Assembly (NCBI GenBank): GCA_945882995.1
Contig: CAMCXE010000004.1
Span: 1-48,237 of the forward strand
DNA from: Thalassocella blandensis
Lineage (GTDB): Bacteria; Pseudomonadota; Gammaproteobacteria; Pseudomonadales; Cellvibrionaceae
Reading direction: 5' to 3'
Length of the DNA stretch: 48,237 bases
Part shown: positions 38,507-47,455 of the stretch, one piece after another
Numbering within the stretch: the first letter of the stretch is position 1
Layout: every line of letters begins with the position of its first letter
Position numbers and translations under genes: made by a program
Notes under the pieces: model-generated
What the model was told of the DNA's origin: nothing
The model's input: the letters and a program-made list of their open reading frames with translations, nothing else
The model's database searches: none

Positions 38507-41500
38507 CTACAACGGTTTTGGAGGCGGCATGTTGGGGTCAATCATATCTGGCAACCCATGGAAAGCCGCGAGTATGTCAATCCGTGCTTGGGTATTGTAG
38601 GTAAGGTGGCGTTCTGCACTGCCCTTAAGGCGCATAAACCCTTTGCGCACCACTGTTTTCCCTTCGAGGCCGCTTTCCTCAAACAAGGCCACGGCGGAAT
38701 TGGCGGAGTCCCAATCGCTGATTGCCTTAACACCGTCTGGCACATTCACCAACAGAAGCTTCATGCCGCCCAGAGTGCGTAAAGATACGACGTCTTTACC
38801 TACATCTCTGATTTCACCGGTGACGGTGTTACGGATTTTGAAATAGCCAATCACGTCGGCATCATTCGCATTGCCCGTGCTGGAACCGAGGAACAACTGC
38901 ACTTCAGACACACCGCCCTGCGCATCGCTAGCGTGCGCGATGGTAATGCCGATCGGTTTAGCTGCGGCATCGTTGAGGTCTCCAACAATGTCGTCCAGTT
39001 GGCTGGCCATCACGGGTATTGGGGGCACAAAAGCGTCTTTAGAAGATAGCCAGCTGGCGATAACCGCGTTATCACACACTAGACCGCCTGCCATTGCGCC
39101 TTGCTGTGTGGGGCAGTGGAATTCCAGCTGATTTTGGTCAGCTTGAGTTCGTGCCACATAGGCTTTGGCGCCGGCCGAAAACTTGGCCATCCCGTCGATG
39201 CCTTGACCGAGTCCCGGCCCCACCAATTCCCGCACGGCGGCGCCACTGAGATCGAACTCCGCCAATTCCAAGGTTTCCGAGGCAAAGGGTACAGGTGTGC
39301 CCTTATAGCTTGCCGCAACTTGTACACCTTCACCCATGTCGCCAAAAGCGCCTAACGCGATGAGGTCGTCAGCATTTTTCACACCCATATCCGTAACGAA
39401 GTAACGCGAACCAAAGCGACTGGAGGAGATGTCTTGCCAGCTTTTAGCTGTAGCGTCCCACTGCGACAGTACCTCAGCGGCGGCACTGGAAACGGTGCCA
39501 TAACGGAGCTGTGAATGGCCGCCTTGGGCATCCCGCTCCCGGCTTGTTTCAAACCAGTTAATGGTGTTGCTAGTGAATGCACTTTTCTCGTTAATGTCCA
39601 TGGGTGTGGCAGCGGCTACCCGGCGAACGGATTTACAGACACCGCCTTGAGTCGCGAGCACCGTAAACTTCAGCGTTTTAGTGGCAGCATCAACTGCGCC
39701 CAGCACAGCTTCAACACCCGGCTTGTCGCCGCGCAATGAGAAGTTACCCTTGTCGTCCACCACACCACGCAACTCGCCCTGACCCAACAGCTCCGGCCCG
39801 CCGTAGGTAGCCACCAGATAGAGTTGGTTGCCTTCTGCGCGCAGATCAAAGAAAAAAGCTCCCTGCTGCATATCCGTTACGCAGGTTTTGGCGGAGGGGT
39901 CGAACACCGTGCTGCCCATTGCCGCCGAGTAATTAGCAAGGTACATACCCTGCGCCATAGGTGCAGGCCGGTCACACACGTTGCCTAACTGGTTTTGATT
40001 GTCATCTTCCTGCATGGGATTGGGGATGAGCCGGCAGTTATCCACACTGTCGGGCACGCCATCCTGATCCAAATCCGATTCCATGAACGCAAAACTACTG
40101 CCTGAACTGCTAGTGCTTGAGCTACTGGCGCCGGCTGAACCGCTGGAGCTACTCGCTCCACCTGTGCTGCCCGGAGGCGTATTGTCATCCGGGTCTTTAT
40201 TGTCACCAATGCCGTCGTGGTCCGCATCGAACTGCTCGCCAGGGTCTTTCGGGAAGGCATCCTTACTGTCCGAAACGCCGTCTTGGTCGCTGTCCATATC
40301 CGGCGTTGGGCCAGGTTTAGGCGCTGTAAAGTTGGCCAGAATGGCCTCTAGCGCAACGTCATTGAACACCAAACCCTGCTCCTGCTTATCCGCCAAAGTC
40401 TTGCGGCCATGGCGAACCAACGCCGTGCCGTCGAGGCTGCTTTCCTCAAACAGGATCGGCATGTAACTTTCACCGTCATGCCCCGACAACCATGGCTGCA
40501 GTTTTTCGGGGATTGGCAATTCCAGCACTAGGGTTGCACCCAGTTGCACCTTGCCGAGGTCACCATCGCCCACCACTTGCAAATCTCCCGTGGCGGCTCT
40601 GCCGGCAAAATAGACGGCGTGGATTTTCTCAGCGCTGGCGGTACCATCAACAGACGTTAAATAAGCTTTCAACTCAGCCCCGGAGGCGTCATTGCGGCCC
40701 AGCCAAATAGCGCCGGCTGGAGATGCTTTTAATTCGTCCGGTGTGTAGATCAACTCATCCAAATGTGCTGCGGGAACTGGCGTACTGATGCTGGGGCTGT
40801 CTGATAAAAATGCTCCCACCATGGGCATTACCACCATATCCATAACCGACGGGTCCTTAGTGTCCGTCATGCTGCCGGTTCCATCGCTGGGCGGCAGACT
40901 GGGGTCAGGCTTAGCACCGCCTTCCCAAGCGACTGGCACCATGTTGTCGCAGGTTAGATGGCTATCAAACCAAGGAGAGCTCCCACCCTGACAATCGAAC
41001 TGATACTGGTTGCCGCCACCCGTTAAGGTGGCAACATAGGCTTCGGAACCGGTTGGAAATACTTTACCTTCAGGAATGCCCTTAGCGAAAGCGGGATCGA
41101 TCAGACCATGGATACGCGCCCCGGCCACATTGAAGACGGCAAGTTCTACCTGACGCTTCTCGAGACCGCTGAGCTCACCATTTTTGGTCAGATCCAGAGT
41201 GGCCACTTCACCACCCTCGCCAAAGCCGCTGATCCGCACCCGATCCTGCGCAGTTTGCACGCCAGTTGCGGTTAGGTAGTAATTCAGCCTGCTTTTGTCC
41301 GCGGGTACTGGCGCCCAGGCTGGGCCCTCTGGGCTCCAGCGGTAGCGAGTTTCTGCGGCGCCGGTTTGCAGGTCGGTATACTCAAAATCCATGTGTGTTT
41401 GAGCAGCAGTGCTGAAATTTTGCTGTGCGTCCAGCCAGTGCACACCCAAATCAAACACGGCCTTTTCGTTAACATCCACCGGTAATTCGCCTTTCGCATG

Positions 41501-44500
41501 GCGTTTTTGCACACACTCCAGCGTTGGATCCATAGATTTTGGCTTAGCACTTTCTTCAAAGTCGAATTCAAAGACCCCGTCAGCCGCACTAAATAGCCCG
41601 TTGGAGGCCACAAAATGGTCGCCGCCGGTCAAGGTGAAGCTGCCATCTTTGAGCATGATACCCACCAAACCTTCGTCGTCAGCGGTGTTACCCTGTTGCT
41701 CCTCGAGTTTGTCTAAGAAGATCTGCGAGCCGATTTGTTTGGCGTCAACAAAGAACATTTCACTGTGCACATCGTCCACACAGCCCATGCCGTCTGGGCT
41801 AACAACCTGACTACCCATTTCCGGCGTAAGCGTAACTTGGTAGATGCCACTCATGTTCAGCCCGTCAAGTTCACAGGCGTCGCCGATGCCGTTGGTATTT
41901 GAATCCTTTTGATCACCGTTAGGTACAAGCACGCAGTTGTCCTGTAGATCGATCACCATGTCCTTATCACGATCCCGCGCGGCTGGATTTTCGTCAACAT
42001 CGGGGACGCCGTTGTTGTTGTTATCGAAATCCTTGTCATCGGGGATACCGTCGTGGTCTTTATCGCCAACCATCGGGTTTGTGCCTTCTTTATCGTCAGG
42101 GATGCCATTGTTGTTGTCATCGAGATCCTGATTGTCGCCCATACCGTCATGGTCGCGATCGAACTGCTCTTTGGGGTCCATGGGGAAAGCATCTTTGTCA
42201 TCGGGCACACCATCTTTATCGGTGTCTTTCACACCATTGGGTACCAAAGGGTTAAAAGGCTCAGGATCCATGTTGTCTAGCACACTGTCGTTGTCGTCGT
42301 CCTCATCGAGGTTGTCCGCAATACCATCACGATCGGCGTCGCCGGGCATGGGGTTGCTAGGCTGCTGACTGCGCAAAAAGGCGGTAATGTCGAGGGCGCA
42401 TTTTTGATCACACTTATCCGCGCTGCCTTTAGGCATCATTTTGTCGATGAACACTTCCAACACCACAGTCTCCATTCCCATGGCATAGGCATTTTTAAGC
42501 GGAAAGATAGCGGGCGCAAAACCGATGCCCGCACCTTTGTCGCCATGACAATTCACACACATGGCTTGGAAGTTGAATTTGCCGCGACCTGGGTCACCCA
42601 TATTCATGGGGCCGGTGTTGGTGCCGCCGCCCGCGTTGAATACAAAGGGATCCACGTCTAGTCCATCAGGAATTTTGTCATTGTCGTCGTCCATGTCCAC
42701 GCGGTCGCCAATGCCATCATGGTCATTGTCGCCCTGCTCCTGCGGGTTGAAGCGGAAGGCGTCAGCGTTATCGCCGGTGCCATCGCGGTCGCTGTCCAAC
42801 TGCTCTTTGGGGTCCGTAGGGAAGGCGTCCGACGTATCGGGCACGCCGTCATTGTCGGTATCCGCAGGCGGGTTGTAATCGAAGTTGTCTAGTGCGTCAC
42901 CCAGCGCCGGTTGGTTCAAACCCGACTCGCGGTGCAGTGTGCCGGCCATTTGATAGTGGCCAATGCGCAGGTAGGTTTTACCATCGGAACTATCAGCAAT
43001 AGGGGCTAAAAACAGGTTGCCGTCGCCCAAGCCAAAACCCTTGCGCAAGTAATCGGGCAGCTTAGCGGCCAGCAAGCGTGCATCGCCCAGCGGTGCCACA
43101 ATTTTCCAGCTGCCTACAATCGCGTTACCCATTGCGTCTTTGAGTGGTGTAAAGTTTTGGCCAGTGCCGCCAAACGTCTTCGCGTAAAAGGTAATAACAC
43201 CCTCGGTATTTAAGTTGCCGCTGGCGTCTGCACCTTCGAAGTAGGCAAAAATTTGACCGTTAAAACCCGGCGCAACCCACAAGCCTTGTGTGTCGTCGGT
43301 CATAACGCTGCCGGGGGTGTGAATCACATCCTCAAAACCGTCCGCTAGGCTGATCACCCCTTTGGCGTCTATGGCGGTTACCACGCCATTCGCACAATCG
43401 AGGTTGCCTATAGAAAGGTTGCCACACTCCACCTGGTAGGTATCCACAGTGCTTTCAGCACTAATTGCCAGAGCTGCCGCATTCGCATTGGTGAATTTCG
43501 CCTTGCGGTTAATCAGGCCGGATTCCACCCAGAGTTTGTCCACCAGTTGATCCATCGGTTTGTCGAATACAGGCAAGCGGTACATGGACAGCTTCCAGTT
43601 TTCTAACACCTGACCCTTGGTATCGCGCGATTGCACTTGAACCTTGCCGTCTTGCACATTCACACTCAAGCTGCCGTCGGCTTGTACCCAGCCGCTAGCG
43701 GTAAGGTTAAAGTTGCCGCCGCTGGCGTCTGCGCTGCTGGCACTTTTCCAGCTATTGCCCGCCGCATCCCAGCTGAAGCGCGTTTCGCCGGCGGTATTGA
43801 CAATGCCGTAACCAAATTTCAGTAAGTTGGAATGGCTGGTGGGGTCAAAGCGTAGGTCGCCGAAGCTGGTGGCAAAACCGCCGTCTACACCCTCAGCCGC
43901 CGCCATCACTTGCGGGGCTTCCGCCTCGGGCATTAGGGTGAAGGTAACGGTGGAGCTGAACTTACACGACAACAAGGTTACGCTGCCGCCGTTGGCGTTT
44001 TTCACCACCGAGCGCTCTTCGTTCAAAATGCCGCTCAGGCGCCCTTCTGCGTTGAGTTTGCCGTTGAAGATCATGTTTTCGCGGGTAAATAATTGATTGT
44101 CCGCATGCTCGCTGCGTTTTTCAAAACCCACTTGGCCGAAGCTGTTGGTGCGCGCCACTATGCCTTGACTGAGGTCGAAACCGTCGTCACTGGAGGCTAT
44201 GCGCAACTCGGCATCTTTTTGGCTGATGAACAACACGCGTTCCGTCAGGTCACCTTGCGCGCCGCTGCACACATCGGGCACTGGCTGCTCGGCGGGTTTA
44301 GCGCCCGGCAGTTCAAAGCGGGCCAAACCACCCGGCAGGGGCGAAGCGCCGGTTGCACTGGGTTTATAGACTGACGCACTCACCACTTTGAACTCGGCCA
44401 TATAAAAGCCAGTTACCTTCGGTGGATCATCGCACAGGTTGCCTTTGCCATCTAAATCCGTATCCGCTTGGTCCACATTCGGCACTAGGGCGCAGTTATC

Positions 44501-47455
44501 GCGCTGGTCCATAATGGAATCGTGGTCGCTGTCGCGGTCATTGGGGTTGGTGCCGCGCTCTACTTCTTCCAGGTCGGTTACGCCATCGCCGTCGTCATCC
44601 GCGTCACTATTGTTGCCTTTGCCGTCGCCGTCAAAGTCTTTGCTTTCCGCCGAGTTGAAGGGGAAGGCGTCCAAGTAGTCCTGCACGGCATCGCCATCGT
44701 CGTCATCGTCACACACATCGCCTTTGCCGTCTTTGTCGAAGTCGCCTTGTGGGCCGGGCACTGTGGGGCAATTATCGGAGCCGTCGCCCAGGCCGTCACG
44801 GTCAGTATCGGCAGACTCCAGCGCATTCAAGGGGAAGCGATCCTTATCATCGGGCACGCCATCGTTGTCATCGTCTAGGTCGGCGCGGTCACCCGTGCCG
44901 TCCTTATCAATGTCAAATTGCTCGGTTTTATCCAGCGGGAAGGCGTCTTTATCGTCCGTCAAGCCGTCGTTATCATCGTCGCTGTCGGGCTCTAAACCGC
45001 CGCTATTGGCGCGGCCGTCTTTGTCGGTGTCCACAAAAGTGGTTTCGGGAATGGCGCTGTTGGTATCGTCTGGGTCCTGCCCTTTTAACCAGCCGTCGTT
45101 ATCACCATCAGTAGCCGAGGACACTTTCTTGTCGAGCGGCGCGGCATCTTTATCGTCGGCCACGCCGTCGTTATCGTCGTCCATATCGCAGGCGTCGCCA
45201 ATTGTGTCTAAATCGGTGTCCACCTGATTGGCATTGCGCTGGAATTTGCAGTTGTCTTTATTGTTGCCCACGCCATCAAAATCGTTGTCGATAGACTCGG
45301 TTTTGTCTGCGGGGAAGGCATCTTTACCATCGCGCACACCATCACCATCGGTATCGCGGTTGCGGGCGTCAGGGTCGCGGTCATCGGGCAGGTCGTCACC
45401 GTCTGCGTCCGGGTCTTTATTGTTGCCTACACCATCGCGGTCCAAGTCCTCCGTCTCGGTGGCATCAAAGGGGAAGGCATCGGCTTTGCCCGCGCGATTT
45501 TCGGGGGTATTGAGCTCGGTATCGCCACCGGTATTGTTGGGCGCCTTGTCGCCGTCAATGTCATCGTCCGTATTGTCGCCGAAGCCGTCATGGTCGGTAT
45601 CTTTCGAGGCTTTGGGGTCCAGCGGCAAATCATCTAACTCATCGGCCACGCCGTCGTTATCGTCGTCTTCGTCCACCAAGTTGCTGGTGCCATCTTTGTC
45701 CGAATCCACAAACGGAATGCCGGGGGCTTTGTCATTGGTGTCGTCTGGGTCTTGCCCTGCTGGCCAGCCGTCGTTGTCTTGGTCGTTGCGGTCGCTGCGC
45801 GTTTTATCCAGCGGGAAGGCGTCGCTAACATCCAGCACTTTATCGCCGTCATCGTCACCGTCCACATTGTCGCCCATGCCATCGCTATCCGTGTCGGCGG
45901 TTTCTTTAGCATTTAAGGGGAAAGCATCTTGATCATCGGTTACGCCGTCACCGTCGTCGTCTACGTCGGCGTTATCGCCAACGCTGTCTTTATCGGTGTC
46001 TTTACTTTCCGACGCGTCTTCGGGGAAGGCGTCGTCACTGTTTAATACCGTGTCACCGTCTTTATCCGTGTTAACCACGGCAGGCTGAATATCCACCACA
46101 ATGGAGTCGTTGGCCAATTCCATGGTGTTGCTGCTAGTGCCGGTATCCTTCGCCTCGGACACCAGCAGGTCTTGCACCTCACTCACTTTTGTATTGGTGC
46201 CCGGTATCACCAGCTGGGCGGGGTCGGTTTCCACAATAATGGCCGCGGCATCCGAGTCGTAGGTGGTCAGTGTTTGGTTCTTGCTGTCTTTACCGTCGAT
46301 GTTGCCGTCGGTTAAATCCTGCGCCAAGGCGCCCATAATATCGCCGGTTGAACTGCCTTCCGTATTCTGGCTAATGCCATAAATAATCGCCGCCGCGCCA
46401 GCAATGGCCGTGCGGTAGGCCGCCAAATCTTTCAGCTCGCCGGTGGTATTGGTGTCATCGGTCACCAACGGTGGCGCGCTAAAAATATCGATGTCACTGT
46501 CCATGCCCATGCCAAGGGCCGAAACCACCTTGTCCGAGGCATCTCCCAAGCCATCCACCAGCTCGTCAGCTGTTGCGCCCATTCCCACGCTGGCCGAGGC
46601 CAAAGACACCGCCATAGAGGTGAGGGGCGTGGCGTACACCGGTTTCGCGGCACCGTCTTTGGTGATAATCGTCCGTACCGCGCCAATAGCGGGCTTGGTT
46701 TTGGTATTCAAGTCAATGGTTTTTTCGTCGGAGGTAATGACCACCAAAAACGGCCCCATTTCTGCGGTGGGGATAACTAAGCCGGCAAAATTGGCCTGCT
46801 CATCAGTACGGCCCGTGGTGATCAACATACCTTGCAGGTCGGGCTGGGTTGGATCCAAGCGGTACACATTCACCACCGCATGGGCCAAAGGACCGTCAAC
46901 CGCAGCCCCCTTCAGCGCCAAGCCTGAAGAACTCGAGCTGGCGTTCGAACTGGACGATGATGAAATGCTGGAAGACGAGCTTTTACTGGAGGATCCGCCG
47001 GATGAAGACGTGCTGCTAGAGCTACCACTGGACGAGGTGCTACTGCTAGAAGCGGCGCCACTGGACGATGTGCTGCTGTTTGAAGAGCCGCTGCCAGACG
47101 AAGAACTGCCGCCGGAAGCCGACTTACCACTCGATGACGCGCCGCTACTAGACGATGCGCTGCCACTAGACGACTTACCACTGGATGATGAGCCGCCGCT
47201 AGACGACTTACCACTGGATGATGAGCCGCCGCTAGACGAGGATTTTCCAGCGGATGACGAACTTGAGCTACTGCTAGAAGACGACTTACCGGGGGATGAT
47301 GAACTGCTGTTCGATGTAGAACCCGTGTTCGCTGGCGGCGTAGAAGTTGATTTACTGCCACAGCCCGCGACGGTTAATAGGGATACCACCAAGGGTACCA
47401 ATGTCACTTTTGTTGTCGTCTTCACAAACGACCCAAAATACGATTTTCTTTTCAT
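38507..47455 (-). CDS. Giant multidomain lipoprotein: polyserine stalk, TSP3 arrays, cytochrome c domain, triplicated module
   Basis: 2982 residues; GGGA lies about six bases before ATG 47455. Lipobox VAGC (Cys32) ends the signal peptide. Ser/Gly/Lys-rich stalk about 40-170. A transthyretin-like and helical N-region (about 175-455; GAAVDGPLAHAVVNVYRL). A first thrombospondin type 3 array (about 461-1010) with DxDxDG calcium loops and repeated DAFP. Then module 1 (about 1012-1525), short TSP3, a cytochrome c domain (about 1620-1700; CVNCH with H1637, later Met-Pro and CDQKC), more TSP3 (about 1700-1860), module 2 (about 1862-2375), TSP3 with a second serine linker, and module 3 (about 2495-2975). 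The modules share patterns such as YRW/SQW, ELAxF and EESxLxGxxxVR. Likely an outer-membrane, calcium-stiffened redox protein at the cell surface; the modules' function is unknown. Confidence 0.9.
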   Translation of the reverse strand: MKRKSYFGSFVKTTTKVTLVPLVVSLLTVAGCGSKSTSTPPANTGSTSNSSSSSPGKSSSSSSSSSSSAGKSSSSGGSSSSGKSSSGGSSSSGKSSSGSASSSSGASSSGKSASGGSSSSGSGSSNSSTSSSGAASSSSTSSSGSSSSTSSSGGSSSKSSSSSISSSSSSNASSSSSGLALKGAAVDGPLAHAVVNVYRLDPTQPDLQGMLITTGRTDEQANFAGLVIPTAEMGPFLVVITSDEKTIDLNTKTKPAIGAVRTIITKDGAAKPVYATPLTSMAVSLASASVGMGATADELVDGLGDASDKVVSALGMGMDSDIDIFSAPPLVTDDTNTTGELKDLAAYRTAIAGAAAIIYGISQNTEGSSTGDIMGALAQDLTDGNIDGKDSKNQTLTTYDSDAAAIIVETDPAQLVIPGTNTKVSEVQDLLVSEAKDTGTSSNTMELANDSIVVDIQPAVVNTDKDGDTVLNSDDAFPEDASESKDTDKDSVGDNADVDDDGDGVTDDQDAFPLNAKETADTDSDGMGDNVDGDDDGDKVLDVSDAFPLDKTRSDRNDQDNDGWPAGQDPDDTNDKAPGIPFVDSDKDGTSNLVDEDDDNDGVADELDDLPLDPKASKDTDHDGFGDNTDDDIDGDKAPNNTGGDTELNTPENRAGKADAFPFDATETEDLDRDGVGNNKDPDADGDDLPDDRDPDARNRDTDGDGVRDGKDAFPADKTESIDNDFDGVGNNKDNCKFQRNANQVDTDLDTIGDACDMDDDNDGVADDKDAAPLDKKVSSATDGDNDGWLKGQDPDDTNSAIPETTFVDTDKDGRANSGGLEPDSDDDNDGLTDDKDAFPLDKTEQFDIDKDGTGDRADLDDDNDGVPDDKDRFPLNALESADTDRDGLGDGSDNCPTVPGPQGDFDKDGKGDVCDDDDDGDAVQDYLDAFPFNSAESKDFDGDGKGNNSDADDDGDGVTDLEEVERGTNPNDRDSDHDSIMDQRDNCALVPNVDQADTDLDGKGNLCDDPPKVTGFYMAEFKVVSASVYKPSATGASPLPGGLARFELPGAKPAEQPVPDVCSGAQGDLTERVLFISQKDAELRIASSDDGFDLSQGIVARTNSFGQVGFEKRSEHADNQLFTRENMIFNGKLNAEGRLSGILNEERSVVKNANGGSVTLLSCKFSSTVTFTLMPEAEAPQVMAAAEGVDGGFATSFGDLRFDPTSHSNLLKFGYGIVNTAGETRFSWDAAGNSWKSASSADASGGNFNLTASGWVQADGSLSVNVQDGKVQVQSRDTKGQVLENWKLSMYRLPVFDKPMDQLVDKLWVESGLINRKAKFTNANAAALAISAESTVDTYQVECGNLSIGNLDCANGVVTAIDAKGVISLADGFEDVIHTPGSVMTDDTQGLWVAPGFNGQIFAYFEGADASGNLNTEGVITFYAKTFGGTGQNFTPLKDAMGNAIVGSWKIVAPLGDARLLAAKLPDYLRKGFGLGDGNLFLAPIADSSDGKTYLRIGHYQMAGTLHRESGLNQPALGDALDNFDYNPPADTDNDGVPDTSDAFPTDPKEQLDSDRDGTGDNADAFRFNPQEQGDNDHDGIGDRVDMDDDNDKIPDGLDVDPFVFNAGGGTNTGPMNMGDPGRGKFNFQAMCVNCHGDKGAGIGFAPAIFPLKNAYAMGMETVVLEVFIDKMMPKGSADKCDQKCALDITAFLRSQQPSNPMPGDADRDGIADNLDEDDDNDSVLDNMDPEPFNPLVPNGVKDTDKDGVPDDKDAFPMDPKEQFDRDHDGMGDNQDLDDNNNGIPDDKEGTNPMVGDKDHDGIPDDKDFDNNNNGVPDVDENPAARDRDKDMVIDLQDNCVLVPNGDQKDSNTNGIGDACELDGLNMSGIYQVTLTPEMGSQVVSPDGMGCVDDVHSEMFFVDAKQIGSQIFLDKLEEQQGNTADDEGLVGIMLKDGSFTLTGGDHFVASNGLFSAADGVFEFDFEESAKPKSMDPTLECVQKRHAKGELPVDVNEKAVFDLGVHWLDAQQNFSTAAQTHMDFEYTDLQTGAAETRYRWSPEGPAWAPVPADKSRLNYYLTATGVQTAQDRVRISGFGEGGEVATLDLTKNGELSGLEKRQVELAVFNVAGARIHGLIDPAFAKGIPEGKVFPTGSEAYVATLTGGGNQYQFDCQGGSSPWFDSHLTCDNMVPVAWEGGAKPDPSLPPSDGTGSMTDTKDPSVMDMVVMPMVGAFLSDSPSISTPVPAAHLDELIYTPDELKASPAGAIWLGRNDASGAELKAYLTSVDGTASAEKIHAVYFAGRAATGDLQVVGDGDLGKVQLGATLVLELPIPEKLQPWLSGHDGESYMPILFEESSLDGTALVRHGRKTLADKQEQGLVFNDVALEAILANFTAPKPGPTPDMDSDQDGVSDSKDAFPKDPGEQFDADHDGIGDNKDPDDNTPPGSTGGASSSSGSAGASSSSTSSSGSSFAFMESDLDQDGVPDSVDNCRLIPNPMQEDDNQNQLGNVCDRPAPMAQGMYLANYSAAMGSTVFDPSAKTCVTDMQQGAFFFDLRAEGNQLYLVATYGGPELLGQGELRGVVDDKGNFSLRGDKPGVEAVLGAVDAATKTLKFTVLATQGGVCKSVRRVAAATPMDINEKSAFTSNTINWFETSRERDAQGGHSQLRYGTVSSAAAEVLSQWDATAKSWQDISSSRFGSRYFVTDMGVKNADDLIALGAFGDMGEGVQVAASYKGTPVPFASETLELAEFDLSGAAVRELVGPGLGQGIDGMAKFSAGAKAYVARTQADQNQLEFHCPTQQGAMAGGLVCDNAVIASWLSSKDAFVPPIPVMASQLDDIVGDLNDAAAKPIGITIAHASDAQGGVSEVQLFLGSSTGNANDADVIGYFKIRNTVTGEIRDVGKDVVSLRTLGGMKLLLVNVPDGVKAISDWDSANSAVALFEESGLEGKTVVRKGFMRLKGSAERHLTYNTQARIDILAAFHGLPDMIDPNMPPPKPL
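42357..42600 (-). other. Cytochrome c domain within the giant lipoprotein
   Basis: Encodes residues about 1619-1700. CVNCH (Cys1633, Cys1636, His1637) is a covalent haem c site; MMPKG supplies a plausible axial methionine. Next comes CDQKC, a CxxxC pair also seen (CTADC) after the haem site of the lipoprotein at 308-1801. The domain ends in ITAFLRSQQP, typical of small cytochromes c. It lies between modules 1 and 2. Confidence 0.85.
44430..46075 (-). repeat. Main thrombospondin type 3 repeat array
   Basis: Roughly 550 residues of near-periodic Asp-rich repeats of the kind DTDKDGxxDxxDDDDDxDGV, with recurring DAFPLD and several DNC / GDxCD elements. They bind calcium and form rigid rods in the TSP3 family. 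The DNA is visibly repetitive (many GTCGTC/ATCGTC blocks) but codon differences show it is old rather than freshly amplified. Confidence 0.88.
47171..47236 (-). repeat. 33-bp tandem repeat in the Ser/Gly stalk
   Basis: Two exact 33-base units, each beginning CGACTTACCACTGG, encode Ser/Gly/Lys-rich stalk segments (SSGGSSSSGKS type). Imperfect related units lie on both sides. The unit is a multiple of three, so slippage would only alter stalk length. Confidence 0.85.

Follow-up and report, generated by a model that had tools for sequence, protein, structure and literature searches.

The window analysed here is a 48,237-nucleotide stretch of Thalassocella blandensis DNA (Cellvibrionaceae) that makes up a whole contig. 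Its minus strand carries, at 38507-47455, a single uninterrupted reading frame for a 2982-residue lipoprotein (P0001), as had been proposed in a first-pass annotation made from the letters alone. The neighbourhood of this giant gene can be read on its downstream side only, where tig, clpP and clpX lie on the same strand. Coordinates of the parts of P0001, and the contigs of seven other host proteins discussed below, are collected in Table 1.

Table 1. Features of P0001 in the window, and related host proteins on other contigs.
Feature	Position	Strand	Basis
Signal peptide, lipobox-like LTVAGC	47360..47455	-	sequence
Polyserine stalk, residues 36-177 (142 residues), 65% Ser	46925..47350	-	sequence composition
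N-terminal domain, AVDGP type, residues ~178-462	46070..46924	-	52-56% identity in seven relatives
Main TSP3 array, residues 463-1008, 33% Asp+Glu	44432..46069	-	Pfam and composition
Module 1 barrel, residues 1009-1171	43943..44431	-	hhalign, M1-type vs C-type barrels: 87.5%, E 3.6e-6
Module 1 core, residues 1172-1527	42875..43942	-	model pLDDT 93.6, pTM 0.87
Short TSP3 stretch, residues 1531-1623	42587..42865	-	motif positions
c-type cytochrome domain, residues 1624-1694	42374..42586	-	CVNCH motif, PF13442, kin in two relatives
Second TSP3 stretch, residues 1695-1861	41873..42373	-	motif positions
Module 2 barrel	41492..41872	-	sequence comparison of modules
Module 2 core	40322..41491	-	sequence comparison of modules
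TSP3 and Ser-rich linker, residues 2379-2494	39974..40321	-	sequence
Module 3 barrel, lipocalin/TbpB-like	39614..39973	-	VIA Z 10.5 with 3rwx
Module 3 core and C-terminal tail	38510..39613	-	whole-module model pLDDT 89.1, pTM 0.87
L149-L155	host contigs C172, C70, C11, C13, C107, C42, C105

Anatomy of P0001 and history of its modules

The signal peptide of P0001 contains VAGC at residues 29-32, in agreement with a lipobox; the lipid is expected on Cys32, and glycine is the next residue. With the serine-rich segment that follows, the lipid tether and polyserine stalk described earlier are both present in the sequence. Two parts had been missed, a conserved N-terminal domain beyond the stalk (~178-462) and a cytochrome c between the first and second modules (1624-1694). 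The N-terminal domain has no Pfam match, and a scan of named genomes found it in Teredinibacter waterburyi, Exilibacterium tricleocarpae, strain Bs31 and an uncultured member of the Alteromonadaceae. In T. waterburyi the orthologous gene is truncated at a contig end, and its available part has no cytochrome.

The assignment of TSP3 arrays between the modules is confirmed by Pfam (PF02412, E 8.4e-21, 73.8 bits against a cut-off of 25), with 14 matching stretches at E <=1 and 6 at E <=0.01. A long array precedes module 1 (M1) and shorter ones separate the modules. Stiffening of TSP3 by calcium and anchoring of lipoproteins by their lipid are established for such sequences in general, and by analogy with this general TSP3 behaviour the arrays may form calcium-stiffened rods. 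TSP3 repeats are also shared with MtsC (NF047638, a cell-cell cohesion MYXO-CTERM protein); P0001 scores 202.6 bits against that model, below its cut-off of 350, and the best stretch lies within the TSP3 array.

The first-pass annotation had recognized a module present three times, with M2 and M3 most alike, from landmarks in a common order. The landmarks hold in part: EES is found in M2 and M3 but is absent from M1. The repetition itself is clear from self-comparison with module limits of 1009-1530 (M1), 1862-2378 (M2) and 2495-2982 (M3). Pairwise BLASTP gave E 1.3e-40 for M2-M3, 1.6e-5 for M1-M3 and 6.2e-5 for M1-M2, and Smith-Waterman scores were 61, 13.5 and 10 standard deviations, respectively, above 500 shuffles each. 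Reversed module sequences scored near background, and chance likeness of the three segments is ruled out by the shuffled and reversed controls. The best BLAST matches of M1 to M2 and M3 fall within the larger, C-terminal part of the module (the core).

Searched against the 29 module copies cut out at that stage, M1 appeared more weakly related (E 7e-4 to M3, 0.002 to M2), yet its homology is settled by a comparison of M1-type with C-type profiles, which gave E 1.5e-35 for the whole module, 3.1e-33 for the core and 3.6e-6 for the N-terminal barrel (probability 87.5%). The profiles comprised eight M1-type and eighteen C-type copies, realigned apart, or 26 of the 27 rows of alignment A4; the second copy of L060, truncated at a contig end, was excluded, and the cut points between barrel and core were taken from the joint alignment. 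As judged by these comparisons the three segments of P0001 are homologous, and the M1 barrel is probably homologous to the C-type barrels, on weaker evidence than that for the core.

A tree of 46 module copies resolved two groups, seventeen of M1 type and 29 of C type (100/100), within which M2 and M3 are sisters (95/86). M3 was marked as a long branch, which makes its position somewhat uncertain. In two of the 31 relatives examined (L101 and L104, whose genomes belong to a single genus outside the family), three modules were produced by doubling of the M1 type. On this tree the three-module state arose at least twice, by different duplications.

Structure and distribution of the barrel and core

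In structural models the module consists of a lipocalin/TbpB-type barrel of ~120 residues followed by a core of ~345 residues. The whole M3 module was modelled from 27 aligned copies (pLDDT 89.1, pTM 0.87) and the M1 core from 47 (pLDDT 93.6, pTM 0.87), and the order of strands and helices in the M1 core parallels that in the M3 core when element lists are compared by eye. Residues 2-125 of M3, in module numbering, align with lipocalin/TbpB-type barrels in VIA. The best match is 3rwx (Z 10.5, 2.7 A, 104 residues), a likeness at the level of fold only, followed by 1jju_A (Z 10.3, 2.9 A, 100 residues), and TbpB chains score at Z about 5-8. The likeness to TbpB/lipocalin barrels and to 1jju_A covers the fold of the first ~120 module residues, whereas the core has no match there. 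The barrel parts of P0001 have no Pfam or NCBIfam match, and the module profile has no PDB sequence match. Quinohemoprotein amine dehydrogenase also joins a cytochrome c and a beta barrel. Kinship with this enzyme (1jju_A) was considered and set aside; as no sequence relation was shown, the match is read as barrel likeness alone.

For the M1 core, the best VIA score among 995 Foldseek-ranked PDB chains was Z 3.4 (3.1 A, 50 residues), and none of the 995 reached Z >=5; the typical best Z of 7-8 for unmatched models comes from a larger chain set and is not a like-for-like standard. The best Foldseek match of the core by E-value, a possible mutarotase, has E 2.5e-4 and TM 0.16. TM values are at most 0.19 among the 50 matches listed, and values under 0.2 argue that the core shares no fold with them. 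A beta-propeller, first suggested by the strand pattern and weak hits, is supported by no alignment across the domain. Whole-module Foldseek matches, mostly to propeller-type chains with TMq <0.2, were likewise set aside, and a viral structure library gave no helpful match. Since solely Foldseek-ranked chains were re-aligned, the missing PDB match is weak evidence of novelty, and the core is a candidate new fold. The structure prediction proposed earlier as a check gave the same strand order in the M3 module and the M1 core, and the barrel half resembles lipocalin/TbpB. The “unknown beta-rich domain” of the first-pass annotation survives as the core, which belongs to no named family; the barrel is of a known fold kind, and the repeating unit is two domains. 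A confidently modelled all-beta core with no Pfam match and no clear solved fold is a target for structure work and family naming.

Profile searches identify the core as a new domain family. None of its 47 copies matches Pfam at E <=0.01, one of the 47 matches NCBIfam (at E 0.01), and a single PDB sequence match at E 0.46 was taken as chance. Across the 47 copies only Phe, Cys and Arg residues are invariant, and Gly, Trp and Asn are near-invariant. No acidic residue is invariant; the position of E1224 holds Glu or Asp in 42 copies, and there is no pair of acidic positions at 90% or above.

A first scan of genome contigs with a three-row alignment found no relatives. Later tallies, which all count the window's own genome and are sampled for the larger groups, found the module or core in 19 of the 144 genomes searched within the family. 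The figures were 23 of 390 for the order, 6 of 369 and 7 of 321 for the class (with two profiles) and 6 of 349 for the phylum, where one of the six lies outside the class. Across the rest of the phylum the module or core is rarer than in the family. Relatives with one, two or three modules occur in the family and beyond it, so P0001 does not stand alone. A lipobox-like start was found in 23 of 31 relatives with a permissive pattern; some of the other eight are cut or have no sure start, and contig ends truncate several of the 31 genes. The core is also found in proteins of 379-842 residues that have no TSP3, most with a lipobox-like start when inspected by eye. No partner gene recurs widely near the relatives or the stand-alone core lipoproteins in the neighbourhoods compared. 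Genes of purA and hisZ type, named by eye from their starts, lie near the gene in several close relatives, which we read as shared descent, not function.

Several further architectures were seen. Members of a second giant class (L050:3439-11796, L051, L053, L054, L057, L058, L059 and L099) have about 1900-2400 residues followed by one or two barrel-core modules on the C-terminal side. L050 has no Pfam match, and the 11 members scanned (L099 excluded) gave TSP3 (3), cytochrome (2), one PARP-like match and nothing else. Two stand-alone core proteins (L063:6230-8584 and L064:6733-9090) have a further C-terminal domain, with a weak Lipocalin_4 match in L063 (E 0.017) and none at E 0.01 in either. 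A transporter-like gene (RND-type by eye, one BLAST cluster) is the neighbour of a stand-alone core lipoprotein gene in two genomes that share a genus, and in a genome from another family a gene of this cluster lies next to a giant module protein (loci L119, L120 and L099); this may be chance. Beside and opposite a two-module relative, a 2409-residue frame (L052:11066-18292, minus strand) BLAST-clusters with the giant proteins.

Cytochrome domains of P0001 and the host genome

The cytochrome domain of P0001 has the heme motif CVNCH at 1633-1637 and, beyond KMMPKG, a Cys pair at 1682/1686; the Met of KMMPKG is a candidate axial ligand. PF13442 (CBB3-like, cut-off 27) scored 23.8 bits with hmmscan and 30.4 bits in the genome search. 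The closest kin are in L054 (E 1e-16) and L059 (E 4e-14), where the domain is C-terminal to the modules. A more distant match (E 8e-6) lies in the lactonase-like protein encoded at 308-1945 of the window. That protein, on the minus strand, combines a polyserine stretch with a lactonase-type propeller of seven blades (PF10282) and carries a c-type cytochrome at its C-terminal side. Cytochrome c was found in just 3 of the 32 module genes, the window's included and several cut by contig ends, which argues that redox activity is not a function shared by module genes.

The host genome holds 25 matches to the P0001-type cytochrome family. Eight further host contigs were opened because they carry large frames with such a match, and they yielded L149-L155, seven polyserine cytochrome proteins 771-1417 residues long, and L157, which has no polyserine. 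Five of the seven have a lipobox by pattern (L149, L151, L153, L154 and L155); L150 has LTAC, seen by eye behind an over-long start, and L152 has LANC. DUF1592/DUF1588/DUF1595 scored above cut-off in four (L149-L152), as did CBM4_9 or malectin in L149, L151, L152 and L154. L150 has a CBM60 match under the cut-off, L154 additionally has a Cip1-like domain, and L153 and L155 have none of DUF1592/1588/1595, CBM4_9, malectin or Cip1-like above cut-off. No AA10 LPMO was detected in the host genome (97% completeness), and a control run detected AA10 in 1 of 14 genomes. The usual electron acceptor of such cytochromes would thus be missing in the host.

Possible role of P0001

We put roughly even odds (0.5) on P0001 being an outer-membrane-anchored, calcium-rigidified display or binding scaffold, here with an electron-transfer domain. 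The lipid and polyserine stalk would hold it to the membrane, and calcium-stiffened TSP3 would keep the N-terminal domain and the three modules away from the membrane, where the modules would bind a ligand or partner, most likely an extracellular polymer or protein. With a c-type cytochrome added to the chain in the host, the scaffold could also pass electrons, as the other polyserine cytochrome proteins of the genome probably do. Presence of one to three modules through different duplications is as expected of avidity-type binding units, and a type II-like export route is conceivable, since three secretins are present in the host genome. Against the scaffold stand the lack of a widely recurring partner gene and the position of the P0001 gene next to tig-clpP-clpX, as do the presence of a cytochrome in only 3 of 32 genes and the lack of a detected AA10 LPMO in the host. 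A bolder version, which we regard as speculative, holds that the core is a new fold of phylum-wide surface lipoproteins, duplicated, paired with a barrel and mounted on TSP3, and that with the cytochrome it would form a calcium-tuned, LPMO-free surface electron conduit.

The absence of any invariant acidic residue from the 47 core copies speaks more for a unit of binding or structure than for a hydrolase, although it is not proof. That the core is instead an enzyme, for example one acting on carbohydrate and displayed in three copies, is suggested by the weak likeness to the possible mutarotase and by the largely Glu/Asp position; the TM values below 0.2 among the matches listed, the restriction of invariance to Phe, Cys and Arg and the missing acidic pair make this very unlikely. 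P0001 might also be a calcium-dependent adhesin or biofilm matrix protein in which the cytochrome is a minor passenger, a reading in keeping with the 29 of 32 genes in which no cytochrome was found, several of them cut by contig ends. Calcium-binding megaproteins of Saccharophagus with more than 2000 residues have been suggested to attach the bacterium to algae (PMC2386152), and in a marine gammaproteobacterium the large calcium-dependent protein BapP takes part in forming biofilms (PMC12153261). P0001 has no known adhesin domain in Pfam, however, the domains of BapP differ, and the cytochrome retains its CxxCH and MP motifs in three genes, so that an adhesin seems rather doubtful.

These comparisons extend to details of the known proteins. 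The megaproteins of Saccharophagus degradans resemble P0001 in being very large, acidic and secreted, with calcium-binding motifs, and enzymes of that species contain TSP3 and polyserine linkers; no barrel-core module is described in the available text, where the word “cytochrome” occurs 0 times (PMC2386152). BapP, from the marine gammaproteobacterium Pseudoalteromonas tunicata, is likewise large, calcium-related and located at the surface, but it has a five-bladed propeller and Ig-like repeats and is possibly type I secreted, and the available text mentions TSP3 and thrombospondin 0 times (PMC12153261). The Calx-beta and BIg_9 repeats of BapP adhesins were not found in P0001 (Pfam, E <=1). 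Among open-licence PMC papers, no title in the matches listed concerned the barrel-core module or TSP3-cytochrome lipoproteins, and no paper brought Cellvibrionaceae together with thrombospondin.

A last alternative makes P0001 an electron-transfer partner of extracellular oxidative enzymes, like Cbp2D and Cbp2E and the redox proteins of Teredinibacter. Large secreted proteins of this group bear flexible linkers and c-type cytochromes (PMC10916295), Cbp2D and Cbp2E are required for growth on insoluble cellulose (PMC12542752), and L154 of the host is a polyserine protein that combines CBM4_9, cytochrome c and a Cip1-like domain. Cbp2D of Cellvibrio japonicus and TERTU_2913/TERTU_3803 of Teredinibacter turnerae, a species placed in the Cellvibrionaceae (PMC11632262), resemble P0001 as secreted proteins of large size and several domains that bear c-type cytochrome motifs and come from the same bacterial group. 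They carry X122, X132, X183 and in part CBMs, however, whereas in P0001 one CBB3-type cytochrome is combined with TSP3 and barrel-core modules; neither a Cip1-like domain (X122) nor a CBM was found beside this cytochrome (Pfam, E <=1). Most relatives have no cytochrome, isolated Teredinibacter cytochrome domains did not drive LPMO (PMC10916295), and the reading is lowered further by the failure of the genome search to find an AA10 LPMO. We consider it distinctly unlikely.

The host is related to cellulose-digesting shipworm symbionts. A heme domain on a TSP3 scaffold, together with seven polyserine cytochrome proteins in a genome where no AA10 LPMO was detected, makes the electron-acceptor question testable for the extracellular cytochromes of Cellvibrionaceae. 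On another host contig (C87), the minus strand encodes a further Ser-rich protein (L156:2146-4413); its 756 residues include a TSP3 repeat, and its CBM4_9 match falls slightly short of the cut-off.
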